Part shown: positions 2,262-22,116 of the stretch, piece by piece
Layout of the letters: every line of letters begins with the position of its first letter
Position numbering within the stretch: position 1 is the first letter of the stretch
Assembly: GCA_947466965.1 (NCBI GenBank)
Contig: CANIFU010000025.1
Span: forward strand, 1-38,576
Length of the DNA: 38,576 nt
Source: Bacteroidota bacterium
Lineage (GTDB): Bacteria; Bacteroidota; Bacteroidia; 2-12-FULL-35-15
Direction: 5' to 3'
Position numbers and translations under genes: made by a program
The notes under the pieces: model-generated
Databases searched by the model: none
Seen by the model: only the letters and a program-made list of their open reading frames with translations
What the model was told of the DNA's origin: nothing

Positions 2262-4673
2262 CTATAAACCGTTTTTTCTGGAAAAAAGTGAACTCGCAAT
2301 CGTGGTAAGCAATATTATTGAAATGGAGCTTGCAGGCATAAGTATGGCTGCTATCACTGGTGATAGTTGCCCCTGAACAGCAAAAAATATCCCTACTAGG
2401 TTATATAAAATAGACATAACAAAACTAATGAAAATGATGTTTTTACCACTTTTTGAAAACTGTAGCAATTGTTTGATCTTTTTGAATGAATCACCATCCA
2501 AAATGACATCACAGGAAGGTGAAAAATTATTTATATCATCGGATACAGATATCCCGACATCACTCTGAAACAAAGCACCGGCATCATTCAAGCCATCACC
2601 CAACATAATGACCTTATTCCCTGTTTGCTGAAGAGATTTTATATATTCCAGTTTATCTTCCGGATTTTGATTGAAATGAAGATTTTCAAAAGGAATAATT
2701 TTTTGAAGAACATCTTTTTCAGCGTCATTATCACCAGAAATAAGATGTACATTATAAGTTTTGCTTAAGTCTTTGATCAAATCAGTAATTCCTGTTCTAT
2801 AAGAACTATTAATACTATAATAACCTAAAACATTTCCGTCCAATGAAAAGAACACTTTACTTGTGGTGCTGTTTTGTGTGCTTCGATTTCCGGTAACAAA
2901 ATACTCAGACCCCATTAAAACATGCATTCCGTTCAGCAAGGCTTTCATTCCTTTGCCTTGAATTTCTTCAAAATTTTGGACAGTATAGTTCAGATCGGAG
3001 GAAAAGTGCTCACAAATTTTTCTACTCAAAGGATGAAGTGAATTAGAAGAAACGGATGCCGCAATCGCATTTTCTTCTTTACTTAGCTGCATACCTATAA
3101 ATTGCACACTTGAGCCATGCGTTATGGTTCCCGTTTTATCGAATACGATGGTATCTATCTTTGCTAACTTCTCTACGACCATAGCATTTTTGATGTAAAA
3201 TTTATTCCTGCCGAAAATGCGTAACATATTTCCATTGGTAAAAGTAGCTGACAATAATAATGCACATGGGCAAGCAACAATTAAAACAGCGGTCAATGCA
3301 TTTAATCCTCTGTTCAGATCTGATGAAAAGGTCCAATATAGAAAACCACTTAACGCGATCATAAAAAGTGCGATTGTAAAATATTTACTTACTTTATGAA
3401 TAAACGATTGCGAATCACTCGCAATTACATCACTGGAATCCTTATTCCAGAGACGTGTTAAATAACTTTGTGATACTTCCTTTTCAACATCAAGTTCAAT
3501 TGCACCTTGAAGTTGTCGACCACCGGCATAAATCAATTCACCTTGGATCTTTTTAATTGGACGTGATTCTCCTGTAACAAAACTATAATCAATATAAGTG
3601 CTGTCTGATTTCAGAATCGAATCGGCAGGAATGATCTCGTTACTTCTTACAAGTATTCGATCACCTTTTTTTAAATCAGAAACGGGAATACTCAACTCCT
3701 TTTTATCCTTTAGCAGTGCTACAGATATTGGGAAATATGATTTATAATCCCGCTCAAACGAAAGATTGTCGTAAGTTATATTTTGAAAATATCTGCCTAT
3801 GAGCATAAAAAAAACGATTCCACTCATAGAGTCCAAATAACCGGCACCGGTTCCGCTGATAATTTCAAAGATACTTCTTGTAAAAGTTATCAGGATAGCG
3901 AAAGCGATAGGAAGATCAATATTTAAAAAACGTTGCCTAATACCTTTCAAGGCAGATATAAAAAACTCAGAAGCACTATAAAAGAAAACAGGTAAGGAAA
4001 GCATTAAATTTATCATTCCGAAAAACTTTTTCAATTCATGCTGGTCATAAAAATTACCCAATGAAAAGTATTCAGGAAAACTCAGCATCATGATATTTCC
4101 AAAACAAAATCCGGCAATACCAATTTTAATGATTCCTTCTTTATTTGCTTTTTTCTCTTTTTTATGCTCGAGATCATTTAAACTTATCAATGGCTCATAG
4201 CCAATATTGGTTAGCAGTTCAACGATTCCGGATAATTTAACGGCATTGTCCATAAAGACAACTGTAACATCTTTTTTCAAAAAATTAACGGTTGAACTGA
4301 TCACTCCTGTATTTAGCCTTTGTAAATTCTCTAATAGCCAGATACATGAACTGCAATGCATTTTAGGTATATAAAATATTACATGTACCTCATTCCCTTC
4401 AATGAAATGAATAAGTTTTCGCTTTACCTCCTCATTATCAAGATAGGTAAACCGTTCCGAAGGAATTGTCTTATTAAAATGAATGCCGGGGGTAGAATTA
4501 AGAGTGTAATAGGTGCAAAGATTATTTTCATTCAAAAGCTCATAAACAAGTTTACAGCCATCACAACAAAAATCTTTTTGATCAAATATTATTGGAGTAA
4601 CATTAACAGGTTCTCCGCAATGATAGCATTGAATCTGATTTTCTACCTTTTGCTTTTGATAATTTAACTGCAT
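2262..4673 (-). CDS. ccoI: CcoI/FixI-type copper-translocating P1B ATPase
   Basis: An 803-residue P1B-type ATPase that exports copper for cbb3 oxidase maturation. The N-terminal domain is cysteine-rich (Cys16/Cys19, Cys36/Cys37/Cys40), as in FixI/CcoI. It is followed by a heavy-metal-associated domain with MHCSSC (Cys107, Cys110), membrane spans, the actuator motif TGES (about 367-370), the transmembrane metal motif CPC (468-470), the phosphorylation motif DKTGT (512-516), an HP motif (SLHPLS) and the hinge GDGLND. The gene lies 12 bases after a DUF2892-like gene and about 200 bases upstream of ccoS on the same strand, so the assignment to the oxidase-specific branch rather than general copper efflux (CopA) rests on both the N-terminal cysteine domain and the neighbours. 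Expression probably comes from the promoter at 5104-5168. Confidence 0.95.
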   Translation of the reverse strand: MQLNYQKQKVENQIQCYHCGEPVNVTPIIFDQKDFCCDGCKLVYELLNENNLCTYYTLNSTPGIHFNKTIPSERFTYLDNEEVKRKLIHFIEGNEVHVIFYIPKMHCSSCIWLLENLQRLNTGVISSTVNFLKKDVTVVFMDNAVKLSGIVELLTNIGYEPLISLNDLEHKKEKKANKEGIIKIGIAGFCFGNIMMLSFPEYFSLGNFYDQHELKKFFGMINLMLSLPVFFYSASEFFISALKGIRQRFLNIDLPIAFAILITFTRSIFEIISGTGAGYLDSMSGIVFFMLIGRYFQNITYDNLSFERDYKSYFPISVALLKDKKELSIPVSDLKKGDRILVRSNEIIPADSILKSDSTYIDYSFVTGESRPIKKIQGELIYAGGRQLQGAIELDVEKEVSQSYLTRLWNKDSSDVIASDSQSFIHKVSKYFTIALFMIALSGFLYWTFSSDLNRGLNALTAVLIVACPCALLLSATFTNGNMLRIFGRNKFYIKNAMVVEKLAKIDTIVFDKTGTITHGSSVQFIGMQLSKEENAIAASVSSNSLHPLSRKICEHFSSDLNYTVQNFEEIQGKGMKALLNGMHVLMGSEYFVTGNRSTQNSTTSKVFFSLDGNVLGYYSINSSYRTGITDLIKDLSKTYNVHLISGDNDAEKDVLQKIIPFENLHFNQNPEDKLEYIKSLQQTGNKVIMLGDGLNDAGALFQSDVGISVSDDINNFSPSCDVILDGDSFKKIKQLLQFSKSGKNIIFISFVMSILYNLVGIFFAVQGQLSPVIAAILMPASSISIILLTTIASSLFSRKNGL

Positions 4674-4685
4674 AAAGAGAACGGT

Positions 4686-4889
4686 TTACTTTTTGTTATT
4701 GAGGGCATCTTTGGGAACTGTATTTATTCCTAAAAGTAAATAAAGCGGACAAATACCTACCTGAACCGTTATAATTGGAATTATTCCAAATACACCCCAA
4801 ACACCATTCAAATGTGCACCAAGAATAATCACAAAAGAACCCAATAAAACACGAATGATTTTATCAACCTTTCCTATATTGATATCCAT
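4686..4889 (-). CDS. DUF2892-like two-helix inner-membrane protein
   Basis: A 67-residue protein starting MDINIGKVDKIIRVLLG, with two hydrophobic helices (about 12-30 and 32-55) separated by a short turn and with VGICPLY near the second helix. This pattern (N-terminal amphipathic lead, RVLLG, GxCPLY at the end of helix 2) is that of DUF2892/YgaP-type membrane proteins, which occur alone or fused to rhodanese domains. The molecular role is unknown. I chose ATG at 4889 over the upstream in-frame start at 4967 because the extension would overlap the preceding small gene and is not hydrophobic or family-like. It ends 12 bases before ccoI and begins 2 bases after the upstream gene stops, so the three genes form a tight operon. 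Confidence 0.8.
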   Translation of the reverse strand: MDINIGKVDKIIRVLLGSFVIILGAHLNGVWGVFGIIPIITVQVGICPLYLLLGINTVPKDALNNKK

Positions 4890-4891
4890 TG

Positions 4892-5074
4892 TTAAAGTTT
4901 TTCTTTTCCATCGGTAATCGTCAAACCCATAAACCCAAGTGTTCCTAAAATGGTTGCAAGCATACACATAAGGTTTACGGTATTCGAAGAAGCAGGACTT
5001 AAAACGGAATACCTGAAAGGGAAAGCAAAGACCAAAGCAATTAAAATAAGTCCATAAATTTTTCTAGTTTTCAT
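4892..5074 (-). CDS. small two-helix membrane protein at head of the ccoI operon
   Basis: A 60-residue protein, MKTRKIYGLILIALVFAFPF at its start, with two hydrophobic segments (about 6-24 and 33-53) and a charged tail ending DGKEKL. I do not recognise a family. Its stop is 2 bases from the start of the DUF2892-like gene, and that gene is 12 bases from ccoI, so it is the first cistron of a probable three-gene operon. The putative transcription start near 5099 leaves a leader of about 25 bases. Its position suggests a role around oxidase or copper-ATPase function, but that is inference from context only. Confidence 0.7.
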   Translation of the reverse strand: MKTRKIYGLILIALVFAFPFRYSVLSPASSNTVNLMCMLATILGTLGFMGLTITDGKEKL

Positions 5075-5103
5075 AGTTTTTTTTATTTATTGGTTTATGA
5101 AAA

Positions 5104-5168
5104 CAAAATTGCCTGAAATTATGTAAATCAAATATGACGCTGGTCAATAAAAAACATGACACTTTTCA
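5104..5168 (-). promoter_or_regulatory. ccoI-operon promoter with two tandem Fnr-like dyads
   Basis: On the plus strand: CAAAATTG at 5104-5111 (CAATTTTG on the coding strand, keeping A2 and TTTG of the TAnnTTTG -7 box), the perfect dyad TGACGCTGGTCA at 5135-5146 and a second dyad TGACACTTTTCA at 5157-5168. Dyad centres are 36.5 and 58.5 bases from the first base of CAAA, the same spacing as upstream of ccoS and the hemerythrin gene. The start site would be near 5099. The weaker -7 box is consistent with dependence on an activator bound near -41.5; that functional reading is inferred. Confidence 0.72.
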
Positions 5169-5267
5169 TATTTATTTATATTTTGAACGGTGTAATACCT
5201 TTGCCTCGTCAATTGAATGCGAAACAGATAGGTCTTGTTCCTTTTTAGCTAGATGTGCTAGATTTCT

Positions 5268-5630
5268 TTAGAAAACAGCTAATATTTCGAGTTCACCCTC
5301 TGTCAGGTCTTCAACATCAACGAGCCTGTTACTTGGACCTTTTAAAGAAGCTAACAGCTCATTCAACTTCAAATGAATTGCTTTGGAATCTTTGTTTTGA
5401 GTCCGCTGTATCAAAAAAACCATTAAAAAAGTAATGATTGTGGTTCCTGTATTAATAACCAATTGCCAGGTATCTGAAAAATCAAATAAAGGTCCGGTAA
5501 TTAACCAGGTTGCGATAATGGAAACGGCAAGCATAAATGAAGTGGTTGTACCTGTGAAAACAGTTGCACTGCGGGCAATTTTTTCAAAAATATTTGCCTT
5601 GTATATTTTTATTGTTTTAGTTGCTTTCAT
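5268..5630 (-). CDS. low-affinity iron permease family protein
   Basis: A 120-residue protein with two membrane helices (about residues 29-47 and 58-76) and a C-terminal cytoplasmic segment (QRTQNKDSKAIHLKLNELL). The arrangement, including FTGTTTSF, the WQLVINTGTTIITFLMVFLI helix and the QNKD-containing region after it, matches the bacterial low-affinity iron permease family (PF04120), named after yeast Fet4. Bacterial members are short, so transport activity is not proven and the name should be read as a family label. It sits about 110 bases after the universal stress gene on the same strand and about 190 bases before the ccoI operon, in a block devoted to low-oxygen metal and respiratory functions. 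Confidence 0.82.
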   Translation of the reverse strand: MKATKTIKIYKANIFEKIARSATVFTGTTTSFMLAVSIIATWLITGPLFDFSDTWQLVINTGTTIITFLMVFLIQRTQNKDSKAIHLKLNELLASLKGPSNRLVDVEDLTEGELEILAVF

Positions 5631-5740
5631 TAAATAGTAAGGAATTATTAATTTCTTTTTTTAGTAATAAAACAACAAAATCATCTCTGCCGGGTAACCT
5701 ACTAAAATAAACATTAGTCCTATCCAAAATACTAAATGAG

Positions 5741-6598
5741 CTATATCATAAACAAATCAGTATTTCTATGGATTACTTTACTCTTTCCTGGAATTGTCAG
5801 CAGTGGGATAATAGAGTGAAATGCCAATCTTTTTGTATGACTTTCTTTGAACAAATTCTGAATAAAACTATGCTTATGAGGAACGATCGCGATAAGATCG
5901 GTGGAATGTTTCTCAACAAAATTAACAATTCCGTGGATAAAATCGTCATCTTCTTCAAAGTAATAGTTGTGCGTTACATCCTCCATAAAATTTTCCAAAA
6001 TAATGCCTATAGATGCCTTTTGAGTATTCATCACTTCCTTTTCCTTCAAAAGGTTGAGTATCATAACCTCCGAATCAAATGTTTTTATAAACTTTTTTAA
6101 GGGATCAAGAACTGCAGTTGTCTGTGTCAAATTATAGTCGCATGCGAATGTTATTTTTTTAGGTAAGCGGAAAGCTGCATTTTCAGGGACAACGATGACA
6201 GGAGTTACTGCCTTTGAGATCAATGCCGTTGTAATACTACCAAATAAATATTCTGAAAATTTGCCTGCCCCACGCATCCCCATTATGATCAGATCCGGTT
6301 TGTGAGAATCCTCAACTTCTATGATATTGTCCACTGCAAATCCGGCCAAAGCAACACATTCGATATCCAACTCGTTGGTAGGATCTAATAAACGTTTTTC
6401 AGCATTCAACTTATTCATACTCTCTTGCTCCAAATCATCGTATGATACAAGAATAGGGACTTCCGTTGCAGGAACATGAATATGGTAGGAGTGAAATAGA
6501 ATAACTTTTGCTTTTGTAAACTTTGCTAATTCGACACCATAATGAGACGCATTTTTAGCGGCATCAGAGTAATCAGTTGGAATAAGAATTGTTTTCAT
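5741..6598 (-). CDS. tandem-domain universal stress protein
   Basis: A 285-residue cytoplasmic protein with two UspA-like domains (about 1-148 and 149-285). The first starts with the typical strand MKTILIPTDYSDAAKNA and holds the nucleotide-binding pattern GMRGAGKFSEYLFGS (G-x2-G-x9-GS), so it probably binds ATP. The second begins near PKKITFACDYN and lacks a clear glycine motif, so it is probably structural. Tandem Usp proteins of this size are common in Bacteroidota and are often induced by low oxygen or respiratory stress. The gene starts 58 bases after the hemerythrin-domain gene ends on the same strand, with no obvious terminator between, so the promoter at 7207-7271 may serve both. Confidence 0.93.
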   Translation of the reverse strand: MKTILIPTDYSDAAKNASHYGVELAKFTKAKVILFHSYHIHVPATEVPILVSYDDLEQESMNKLNAEKRLLDPTNELDIECVALAGFAVDNIIEVEDSHKPDLIIMGMRGAGKFSEYLFGSITTALISKAVTPVIVVPENAAFRLPKKITFACDYNLTQTTAVLDPLKKFIKTFDSEVMILNLLKEKEVMNTQKASIGIILENFMEDVTHNYYFEEDDDFIHGIVNFVEKHSTDLIAIVPHKHSFIQNLFKESHTKRLAFHSIIPLLTIPGKSKVIHRNTDLFMI

Positions 6599-6656
6599 TT
6601 TTTGTATCTAATTAGCACTGTTTTTATCCTTTTTAATGGCACGTTGACACTTATAA

Positions 6657-7190
6657 TCATTTATTTTTTCTTTTCTCTAAATCTGATAGTTTTGAAAACA
6701 AAACATTTTCAGCTAAAAAAGCATGCTTATGAATATCTTGTTCCAAATCAAACAGCTGAGCATAACAAAGTTTTAAGGCAGGAGAAGAATTCACTGATGG
6801 AGTATAATTATTACTCAGTACCCGTATTTGTTTTAAATGCGCAGCAATTTTTAAGTGCTCCGACCGTATTTTTTTAATGGGGCTATCTAATAAATAGTTG
6901 GAGGATTCTTTTGTATTCACAATCAATTTTTTAATATATGGGAACAGAATATATTTCTCAAAATTCAAATGCTGTTCAAGCAATTCTTTTAATTCCTGAG
7001 TAAGTTGGTTGATCAATGACACTTCGGGATGTATCATCAAATCAACTTTTACAATGGTTTTTGAATGAACATTGAACCGACTAAGTGCGTTCTTTATATA
7101 GGAATGATGAGTATCGATAATATATTCAATTAATTTATCGGCTCTTAATTCATTGAAATTCACAACTCCCCCTTGTTCCACGCTTTTCAT
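6657..7190 (-). CDS. hemerythrin-domain protein (ScdA/YtfE/Ric-like di-iron domain)
   Basis: A 177-residue alpha-helical protein with the hemerythrin-like ligand set of iron-sulfur-repair proteins: His28/His29, His74 and Glu78 in HLNFEKYILFP, His112 and His116 in EHLKIAAHL, and His154/His156 with Glu161 in HKHAFLAENVLF. Such di-iron proteins protect or repair Fe-S centres under NO or oxidative stress. The N-terminal ScdA_N (DUF542) cysteine domain of full-length Ric proteins is absent. I use ATG at 7190. The longer in-frame start at 7250 would place the first 20 codons over the promoter and its proximal dyad (7238-7249), and those residues are not family-like. The predicted transcription start near 7202 supports 7190. 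Confidence 0.87.
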   Translation of the reverse strand: MKSVEQGGVVNFNELRADKLIEYIIDTHHSYIKNALSRFNVHSKTIVKVDLMIHPEVSLINQLTQELKELLEQHLNFEKYILFPYIKKLIVNTKESSNYLLDSPIKKIRSEHLKIAAHLKQIRVLSNNYTPSVNSSPALKLCYAQLFDLEQDIHKHAFLAENVLFSKLSDLEKRKNK

Positions 7191-7206
7191 TTTTTTATTT
7201 TTTATA

Positions 7207-7271
7207 CAAAATTCAAGTTTTCCTAAAAAACTATGAATGACAGAAGTCAATATACTTTATGATATTTGTCA
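7207..7271 (-). promoter_or_regulatory. hemerythrin-gene promoter with two tandem Fnr-like dyads
   Basis: On the plus strand: CAAAATTC at 7207-7214 (GAATTTTG on the coding strand), the perfect dyad TGACAGAAGTCA at 7238-7249 and a second dyad TGATATTTGTCA at 7260-7271. Centres are 36.5 and 58.5 bases from the first base of CAAA, identical to the promoters of ccoS and the ccoI operon. The segment GTCAATA after the proximal dyad and TCAT after the distal dyad are also shared with the ccoI promoter. The start site would be near 7202, with a leader of about 12 bases. Confidence 0.72.
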
Positions 7272-7999: not shown

Positions 8000-8488
8000 T
8001 TATAAACGAGATTTTAAAGCAATCATTTTCAACACAGTAACCGCAGCCTCATCACCTTTATTACCATGCTTTCCTCCTGCTCTGTCTTCAGCCTGCTGAA
8101 GTGTATTTGGCGTTAGAACACCAAATATAACGGGCTTGTTGTATTTCAAACTAACATTTGTAACACCATGTGCCACGGCATTGCAAATAAAATCAAAATG
8201 GCGCGTTTCTCCTTGAATTACACAACCTAAAGTAATTACAGCATCAATACTGTTATCATCACATAAAAATTGTGCGCCCATGGTTAATTCAAAACTGCCT
8301 GGAACATAGTGTAAAACGATATCTTTTTCCAATACCCCGTTTTCAAGCAAGGTATTTATTGCACCATCGCGAAGTGCTCCTGTTATGGCGATATTCCATT
8401 CTGCAACTACAATTCCAATGCGCATTCCTTTTCCATTAGGAACAGAACTTCCTTCAGGCTGTGATAAATTTTTATTGACTGATGACAT
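8000..8488 (-). CDS. ribH: 6,7-dimethyl-8-ribityllumazine synthase
   Basis: Penultimate enzyme of riboflavin synthesis, condensing 5-amino-6-ribitylaminouracil with 3,4-dihydroxy-2-butanone 4-phosphate. The 162-residue chain has the family's landmarks: RIGIVVAEWN at the substrate site, VPGSFELTMGAQFL, and TLGCVIQGETRHFDF with the catalytic His97, followed by NAVAHGV and PVIFGVLTPNT. Length is normal, with a short polar N-terminal extension of about 20 residues. It lies downstream of the TPR gene on the same strand, but a hairpin terminator (8551-8593) lies between them, so it probably has its own promoter. An Fnr-like dyad at 8539-8550 lies 51-62 bases before its ATG. Confidence 0.97.
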   Translation of the reverse strand: MSSVNKNLSQPEGSSVPNGKGMRIGIVVAEWNIAITGALRDGAINTLLENGVLEKDIVLHYVPGSFELTMGAQFLCDDNSIDAVITLGCVIQGETRHFDFICNAVAHGVTNVSLKYNKPVIFGVLTPNTLQQAEDRAGGKHGNKGDEAAVTVLKMIALKSRL

Positions 8489-20757: not shown

Positions 20758-22116
20758 TTAATTTATCCATTTGTTATTGAATATACAATCTTTATAATCA
20801 TCCGAAAGATGAACATACGTATCTGCTGACTTTTTCTTTATCCAGACTTTAGTCGCTTCCTGTTGTTTTTTAGAAAGGGTGGCAGCCTGTATACTTTGAT
20901 AATCATCAACAAGATTTGCACGATGAGGCAACGTACGTTTTTTTAAATACAAGATACGATATGCTTGCTTACCATCGTTTGTGGTCATTGGCATTGGTTT
21001 GGTGTATTCTCCGATTTTTAATTTATCGATCGCAAATGCGATACTTTGATCCAGTTGTCCTATTTCATCCATTTGAAAACGTGTAGAACCTGAATAAGGA
21101 TTAATTATCAAGCCTCCACTGTTTTTACTATCTTCATCATCGGAATATCTTGCAGCCATATCCGAAAAAGTAATCGTATCGGCAACCAATCGAGTATAAA
21201 TAGTATCGAGGGATAATTTTGCTGTTATCATATCCTGAGCATCAACTGCAGGAGCAATCAATAAACTTCTTGCATCTACTTCTTCACCTCTACGGGCAAT
21301 TAATTGAATAATAAAATATCCATATACAGTTTCAAATACTTCACTCACTTCCATCGGCTTCAATTTAAATGCCCATGCATCCCATTCCGGAACAAACTGC
21401 CCGCGTTGAATGTGTTCATACAATCCACCTTTATTAGCGGATCCAGGATCCATTGAATACAAAGCAGCCATGGATGAAATGTTTGTTTCACCTTTTATGA
21501 TCCGTTGACGGATACCTTCAATTTTCTCTTTCGCTTCTTTTTTCGCTGCAGTAGAAACAACCGGCTTTTTTACAATTTGTCCTACTTCTATTTCAGCATT
21601 TATAAATGGAATAGAATCTTCAGGTATAGCTTTAAAGTATTCTTTTACTTCATTAGGAGTAACGGAAATATCTCCCGTAATCTTACCTTGCATTTGCTGC
21701 TCCAACAACAAGTCTCGCACATCATCTTTCAATTCCAACTTATAATCCTCCACAGACTTTCCGTAAAAGGCTACAAATTTTTCTTCCGAACCAAATTGTT
21801 GTAAATAATATTTCATCCTTCTATCAAGTTCTTGTTCCAGTTGTCCTTCTGTTACATCCAAACTATCTTTTTGAGCTTGTGCCAACAATAATTTTTGGTA
21901 CAATAATTCTTCCATTATTTTGCAACGTGTTTTTTCAGAAACAGGTTCCTGTGCTGAAAGCATTTGCTGGTATTGTGTTTCTAAATCAGATTGTAAAATA
22001 TAGTTATTACCTACAACAGCAGCAATACGATCAATAACAATCTCCTGAGCAGTTGCAGCTGTTAAACACAAAAGACAAAGTCCGGCAAGAAAAATTTTAT
22101 TTTTTAAGTTTATCAT
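20758..22116 (-). CDS. SurA-like periplasmic peptidyl-prolyl isomerase
   Basis: A 452-residue periplasmic chaperone with a signal peptide (about 1-23, cleavage near TAATA/QEI), a SurA N-terminal helical domain (IAAVVGNNYILQSDLETQY, LYQKLLLAQAQKDSL) and two parvulin-like domains (about 170-280 and 285-395), in which SSMAALYSMDPGSANKGG and SDMAARYSDDEDSKNSGG show the typical S-D-x-S-x-x-x-GG rotamase segment. The family folds outer-membrane proteins. Its first 20 bases overlap the end of the upstream lipoprotein gene, so the two are translationally coupled, and the MoxR gene follows. Confidence 0.93.
   Translation of the reverse strand: MINLKNKIFLAGLCLLCLTAATAQEIVIDRIAAVVGNNYILQSDLETQYQQMLSAQEPVSEKTRCKIMEELLYQKLLLAQAQKDSLDVTEGQLEQELDRRMKYYLQQFGSEEKFVAFYGKSVEDYKLELKDDVRDLLLEQQMQGKITGDISVTPNEVKEYFKAIPEDSIPFINAEIEVGQIVKKPVVSTAAKKEAKEKIEGIRQRIIKGETNISSMAALYSMDPGSANKGGLYEHIQRGQFVPEWDAWAFKLKPMEVSEVFETVYGYFIIQLIARRGEEVDARSLLIAPAVDAQDMITAKLSLDTIYTRLVADTITFSDMAARYSDDEDSKNSGGLIINPYSGSTRFQMDEIGQLDQSIAFAIDKLKIGEYTKPMPMTTNDGKQAYRILYLKKRTLPHRANLVDDYQSIQAATLSKKQQEATKVWIKKKSADTYVHLSDDYKDCIFNNKWIN

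Follow-up and report, generated by a model that had tools for sequence, protein, structure and literature searches.

What do two very small membrane proteins do at the head of an operon for the cbb3 oxidase? The question is raised by the window analysed here, a stretch of 38,576 bp that is an entire contig, one of 128 in a draft genome of 3.1 Mb, so that window position 1 cuts through the cco operon. On the minus strand, a tandem dyad is followed by an ATG-initiated 60-aa two-helix membrane protein, here called P60 (4892-5074), a 67-aa protein of the YgaP-like_TM type (PF11127/DUF2892; 4686-4889, ATG start, assigned by Pfam), ccoI, encoding the P1B-type copper ATPase of cbb3 biogenesis (2262-4673; Pfam/NCBIfam), ccoS (FixS, TIGR00847; 1885-2058; Pfam/NCBIfam, FixS profile PF03597 at 2.1e-21) and a ccoNO fusion truncated by the contig end (2-1876; NCBIfam). 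The distances given in the first-pass annotation are exact, as the two small ORFs are 2 bases apart (4890-4891) and ccoI starts at 4673, 12 bases beyond the end of the 67-aa ORF at 4686, and the dyads lie upstream of P60, with the two ORFs as the first cistrons behind this promoter. What looks like the remainder of the operon is found at the end of contig C20, with the last part of ccoO, a 59-aa CcoQ-like ORF, ORFs resembling ccoP, ccoG and ccoH, and a membrane protein; in a relative, Pfam identified the equivalents of these ORFs, with FixQ staying under its cut-off. Upstream, and behind a promoter of the same type, stand genes for a RIC-like hemerythrin, a universal stress protein (Usp) and a low-affinity iron permease (5268-7250, minus strand; Pfam/NCBIfam), which by inference form one operon. 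For the RIC-like ORF the listed start is a TTG at 7250, which overlaps the tandem dyad, and the promoter layout makes an ATG about 20 codons inward (near 7190) the likelier start.

The second cistron is an ordinary, generic and interchangeable member of PF11127. It matches this profile with 62.3 bits against a cut-off of 25.3 (4.7e-17, positions 1-65 of 66), in agreement with its earlier description as DUF2892-like, and it resembles YgaP-like_TM/DUF2892 proteins both in matching the whole profile and in its two hydrophobic segments. Among 36 genomes of the genus, PF11127 is found in 21 and lies inside the cco operon in three, hence the conserved placement proposed for both small proteins does not hold for this one. 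Escherichia coli YgaP is a membrane rhodanese (PMC4730233) with in vivo substrates described as unknown (PMC9774250), and unlike the rhodanese type the 67-aa ORF is sited in a cco operon and has no rhodanese domain in the Pfam scan. The likeness to E. coli YgaP is found at the second YgaP_TM copy of the genome, which stands near a CRP-family regulator and two rhodanese-like ORFs (by eye); the order at this gene (L265, contig C37 of G000 near 20777-21508; L233) is regulator, YgaP_TM, small membrane ORF and two rhodanese-like ORFs.

The first-pass annotation could not place P60, and P60 indeed has no Pfam or NCBIfam family and, by profile search of PDB sequences, no PDB relative. Foldseek with the P60 model gives nothing at E<=0.001 (best 1.3); its matches to V-ATPase subunit e (2.6) and to a bo3 oxidase chain (6.6) are too weak and were counted as no evidence, and neither this search nor that of the PDB yields a structural or sequence relative pointing to a respiratory role. 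Weak matches of P60 to the profiles of Pox_A14 (0.017) and a PTS subunit (0.058), both far below the cut-offs, were taken as chance hydrophobic similarities, and a match to a hexose transporter (0.23) was taken in the same sense. When 51 homologues were scanned singly against Pfam, 38 families appeared at E<=0.1 (25 of them listed; best E 0.0016), none of them matched by more than three members.

By its conservation, P60 is nevertheless more than a chance ORF, namely a member of an unnamed family of small membrane proteins. A profile of seven homologues detects it in 11 of 36 genus genomes and 54 of 395 class genomes, and a 51-row profile in 71 of the 395 at E<=1e-3 and in 65 at E<=1e-6, the latter count leaving out six genomes with E above 1e-6 (G034, G163, G259, G302, G367 and G404). 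G259, among those excluded, looks genuine by gene context. Within the sampled Bacteroidia the family occurs in 15 family-level groups, which bear anonymous labels (f1, f4 and so on); the genomes are mostly drafts and, being related, do not count as independent. In a phylum-wide sample only 4 of 296 genomes match, this one convincingly and three weakly within longer reading frames, which suggests that the family is restricted to particular groups of Bacteroidia. A scan of genome contigs with P60 found no relative, and a second scan was therefore done with CcoI, of whose 227 relatives the best 80 were kept.

The 76 sequences assembled (61 earlier homologues and 15 later ones) are 57-81 aa long and on balance positively charged at the N-terminus (mean +2.1 across 7 residues). 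The motif P[FLMV][RHKQ] is present in 62 of them and strict PFR in 45, the loop is acidic wherever a PFR-like motif is found, and 45 carry at least one His within the last 15 residues. A 129-aa chance match (L095) was excluded from the alignment and from the sets of 61 and 76 but is counted among the 62 positions used for neighbourhoods below. Ten of the 12 homologue pairs in which dN/dS (NG86) is computable give about 0.01-0.13, the remaining two being one saturated pair and one with only 2 differences and a dS of 0, and by this measure the family is under purifying selection with mainly synonymous change. AlphaFold models P60 with moderate confidence as a helix hairpin (2-25 and 31-55; mean pLDDT 71, pTM 0.41), and the topology is probably N-in/C-in with Pro-Phe-Arg (P19, F20 and R21) at the outer end of helix 1. 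The P60-type genes of group f45 (L070, L076-L078, L081, L083, L089, L090 and L201) form a divergent, His-tailed subgroup whose genomes have no ccoN, whose genes have no dyad and whose neighbours are different or unrelated; its role may differ. Locus L083 has two very similar genes of the P60 type (6024-6230 and 8132-8341), about 2 kb apart in the same genome.

Whether placement beside ccoI is conserved depends on the end from which it is viewed. Nine of the 11 P60-bearing genomes of the genus (f1) have P60 directly before ccoI or before YgaP_TM-ccoI, the remaining cases being one with a 429-aa ORF between and one without ccoI within the fetched 6 kb, and in family f4 ccoI follows P60 immediately in 6 of 6 P60-bearing genomes. 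Two f12 loci have the order P60, FixL-like kinase, REC-CRP-type regulator, an unnamed protein of about 125 aa and ccoI, with gene identities taken from similarity to members tested with Pfam. To this extent the expected linkage stands for P60. Seen from ccoI it does not, as P60 lies within the upstream region at only 8 of the 64 ccoI loci that have at least 2.5 kb upstream, where Usp occurs at 14, RIC at 10, a REC-CRP/FixL-like pair at 10, the unnamed protein of about 125 aa at 7, YgaP_TM at 3 and none of the searched proteins at 28. Outside cco loci, frequent neighbours of P60 are Usp, RIC, FixL-like and REC-CRP genes. Usp, the commonest named neighbour and found so in several families, adjoins P60 at 15 of 62 positions and at 2 of 14 more, two with a CRP/FNR-type regulator gene nearby, and FixL-like and REC-CRP genes stand beside P60 in f4, f9, f5 and f12 loci (Pfam on representatives). 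The neighbour names QueD, HemN, citrate synthase, MBL-fold and rhodanese were assigned by eye. Judged from these arrangements, P60 belongs to a gene pool that is shuffled around ccoI. The soluble protein of about 125 aa (L196:2368-2748; also L113, L114, L118, L121, L148, L150 and L160), which has no Pfam match and is often beside Usp or P60, is another unnamed member of the ccoI-side pool.

The promoter gives a second handle on P60. Upstream of the gene, on the minus strand, lie a distal dyad with one mismatch to TGAYN4RTCA, TGAAAAGTGTCA (5157-5168, read 5168-5157), and a proximal dyad, TGACCAGCGTCA (5135-5146, read 5146-5135), spaced 22 bp start to start, followed by a -7 box, CAATTTTG (5104-5111), at an offset common to 27-28 of 28 aligned P60 promoters. 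With these 28 aligned on the proximal dyad, TTTG occupies offsets 39-42 at frequencies of 1.00, 1.00, 1.00 and 0.96, A stands at offset 36 in 0.89, and the full TANNTTTG is present in 9. Because the G of the -7 box sits at -5 in Flavobacterium (PMC6847099) and the offset between dyad and box is fixed, the dyads would be centred at -41.5 and -63.5, and transcription is predicted to start near 5099. A second tandem dyad was found by pattern search at 7238-7271 (minus strand), before the co-oriented RIC-Usp-iron permease genes; it is exact, with GAATTTTG by eye, and the P60 promoter shows the full layout with one mismatch. With at most one mismatch allowed, this genome has no further pair in front of a gene; a third tandem match with one mismatch (C79:3942) falls within an ORF and was disregarded.

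Strict TGAYN4RTCA dyads lie within 200 bp of 27 of 61 P60 genes. Of 443 control genes from the same loci, each encoding 150 aa or more, 38 have one, among them Usp 5/23, RIC 4/6, CcoI 1/10 and CcoNO 0/6, and Markov shuffles give a mean of 0.69. Tandem pairs, allowing one mismatch over the two sites, precede 28 of 76 P60 genes (shuffled mean 0.02), at a spacing of 22 bp in 24 and 23 bp in 4. The same step recurs in 143 loci plus the window, where 74 distinct strict pairs are spaced by 22 bp and 9 by 23 bp, and every other spacing up to 70 bp is represented by 4 pairs at most; these 144 sequences include three that were fetched by the dyad pattern (L185-L187), and one of the 74 pairs is theirs. 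Across the class, the exact pair is present in 183 of 395 genomes and the reversed pattern matches in 2, one being the repeat-rich G339, with 109 matches to the forward pattern and 61 to the control. Genomes with P60 have the exact pair more often (44/65 vs 139/330; p 0.0002, uncorrected for ancestry), and the tandem element may mark a Bacteroidota low-oxygen promoter class that extends well beyond P60. The link of P60 to a low-oxygen regulon is not universal, since 34 of 61 genes have no strict dyad within 200 bp (all of f9, all of f45 and most of f33) and 48 of 76 have no tandem pair.

A candidate for the protein that reads these dyads is encoded on contig C20, where a 351-aa protein with REC, cNMP_binding and HTH_Crp domains (Pfam) and a PAS histidine kinase, similar in its PAS region to FixL heme-PAS structures (4e-12), stand about 1 kb apart with one ORF between (L264:1948-3036 and 4030-5316, regulator and kinase), on the same contig as the remaining cco genes. 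Similar kinase/REC-CRP pairs precede P60-ccoI in most f4 loci and occur at 10 of 64 ccoI loci in the 2.5 kb upstream. The genome thus holds a putative FixL-type heme-PAS kinase together with REC and CRP-type output, which may act as a pair, and the natural reading would be a one-step FixL/FixJ-FixK-like circuit with the REC-CRP protein as candidate activator. A second CRP-family protein of 208 aa is an alternative candidate.

Taken together with the gene context, these features make it somewhat probable, in our estimation, that P60 is a low-oxygen accessory of respiratory membranes and that much of its family belongs to a low-oxygen regulon. In the lineage of the window, P60 would be the first cistron of ccoI-ccoS-ccoNO. 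The REC-cNMP_binding-HTH_Crp regulator, presumably fed by the FixL-like PAS kinase, would be the CRP/FNR-superfamily activator that binds both dyads (centres -41.5 and -63.5) and brings RNA polymerase to the -7 TTTG box, from which one mRNA would run through P60, YgaP_TM, ccoI, ccoS and ccoNO. P60 itself, as a small protein of the inner membrane, may then stabilise or tune a respiratory membrane complex at low oxygen, its partner being cbb3 where the gene is linked to ccoI and another complex where cbb3 is absent; it would not be a replacement for CcoH or CcoQ and is probably no copper carrier to CcoI. The sequence itself establishes the family, its conservation, the geometry of the promoter and the neighbouring genes, whereas the identity of the regulator, co-transcription, topology and function are inferences from it.

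The roles proposed in the first-pass annotation were narrower, namely a cbb3-assembly or copper-delivery factor, perhaps standing in for CcoH or CcoQ. The stand-in role is refuted, because the genome has its own FixH (PF05751, C20:39696-40118) and a CcoQ-like 59-aa ORF after ccoO, whose equivalents in two relatives match FixQ weakly, below the cut-off. P60 has no match at E<=1 to FixH (PF05751) or to FixQ (PF05545), for which its position, not after ccoO, would also be wrong, and none to FixS (PF03597), CcoS being the separate ORF at 1885-2058. Copper delivery is disfavoured, on an assessment by Cys and His ligands, which a copper carrier should conserve where it is linked to ccoI: two close P60 alignments contain no invariant Cys or His, and a His among the 15 C-terminal residues is present in 3 of the 15 members that immediately precede ccoI, as against 42 of the 61 others (p 0.0009, uncorrected for ancestry). 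Direct linkage to ccoI in f1 and f4 speaks for a dedicated cbb3 biogenesis or copper-delivery factor, as does a modest association across genomes, with ccoN above the cut-off in 46 of the 65 genomes with P60 and in 171 of the remaining 330 (Fisher p 0.006, uncorrected for ancestry), and in the 15 genus genomes of the class sample 4 have both, 6 have neither and none has P60 alone. The remaining 5 of these 15 have ccoN only, in 17 of the 65 genomes with P60 ccoN finds no match at E<1e-50, and 171 of 217 cbb3-bearing genomes have no P60, from which it follows that the oxidase can do without it; by genome content P60 is not cbb3-specific. That P60 is a dedicated factor of cbb3 biogenesis or copper delivery acting with CcoI, with its other occurrences secondary, is hence unlikely, also in view of the rarity of His tails in the ccoI-linked members and of the CcoH, CcoQ-like, CcoG and CcoS proteins already encoded in the genome. 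Dedication to cbb3 or copper is thus disfavoured as the general role of P60 and possible in the ccoI-linked groups.

A looser role is conceivable as well, in which P60 would be a general membrane protein of low oxygen or stationary phase without a direct respiratory partner, for example acting with Usp or altering membrane energisation. The prominence of Usp among its neighbours in several families and the otherwise varying context agree with this, and YohP, a different small membrane protein, has been reported to silence metabolism (PMC12719787). Yet Usp precedes ccoI with or without P60 (the 14 of 64 loci above), so that the link between Usp and P60 may only mirror a shared regulon, and the linkage to ccoI in f1 and f4 is tighter; we regard this role as rather unlikely. 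That the two ORFs are leader or chance frames before ccoI, without functional proteins, would suit their shortness and the absence of a named family for P60, but is highly improbable given the conservation of P60 at the protein level across 15 family-level groups with mainly synonymous change, its occurrence in contexts other than ccoI and the match of the second ORF to PF11127.

The low-oxygen accessory reading can be carried further, and it is possible, although we offer it tentatively, that P60 founds an unrecognised Bacteroidota family of small respiratory-membrane accessories, which a one-step oxygen circuit of FixL and REC-CRP turns on from promoters of a strict -41.5/-63.5 tandem-dyad class and which serve the low-oxygen complex of each lineage, cbb3 in f1, f4 and f12. 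It is easy to overlook the small membrane proteins of respiratory complexes, and the P60 of the window matches nothing in Pfam or NCBIfam although its family reaches across 15 family-level groups. The promoter rule (dyads at a 22-bp step, TTTG at a fixed offset) would offer a cheap reading of a low-oxygen regulon throughout the class, and it opens the choice of regulator to a direct test.

Searches of open-licence literature, judged by titles and opening lines of abstracts, listed no paper on P60, on its promoter layout or on a REC-CRP regulator of cbb3. CcoQ, CcoS and CcoM are small accessory proteins of the cbb3 oxidase. Like them, P60 is a very short membrane protein encoded with or near cco genes, and a similar way of working is plausible; unlike them, it has two helices, and FixQ, FixS and FixH are absent from the profile matches listed for it. 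Class II CRP/FNR promoters have a dyad centred at -41.5. The proximal dyad of P60 would take the same position, with the start predicted from the -7 spacing in Flavobacterium (PMC6847099), whereas the second dyad, 22 bp (24/28) or 23 bp (4/28) further upstream, sets the P60 promoters apart, as does the Bacteroidota -7 box, in contrast to the -10 element of sigma-70 promoters. The FixLJ-FixK cascade has been described in alphaproteobacteria (PMC9104804), and this genome resembles it in having a FixL-like PAS kinase and a CRP/FNR-type DNA-binding domain with cbb3 genes nearby, but differs in that the receiver and CRP domains are fused, so that the FixJ and FixK steps would become one, and in that the dyads stand in tandem at a strict 22-bp step.
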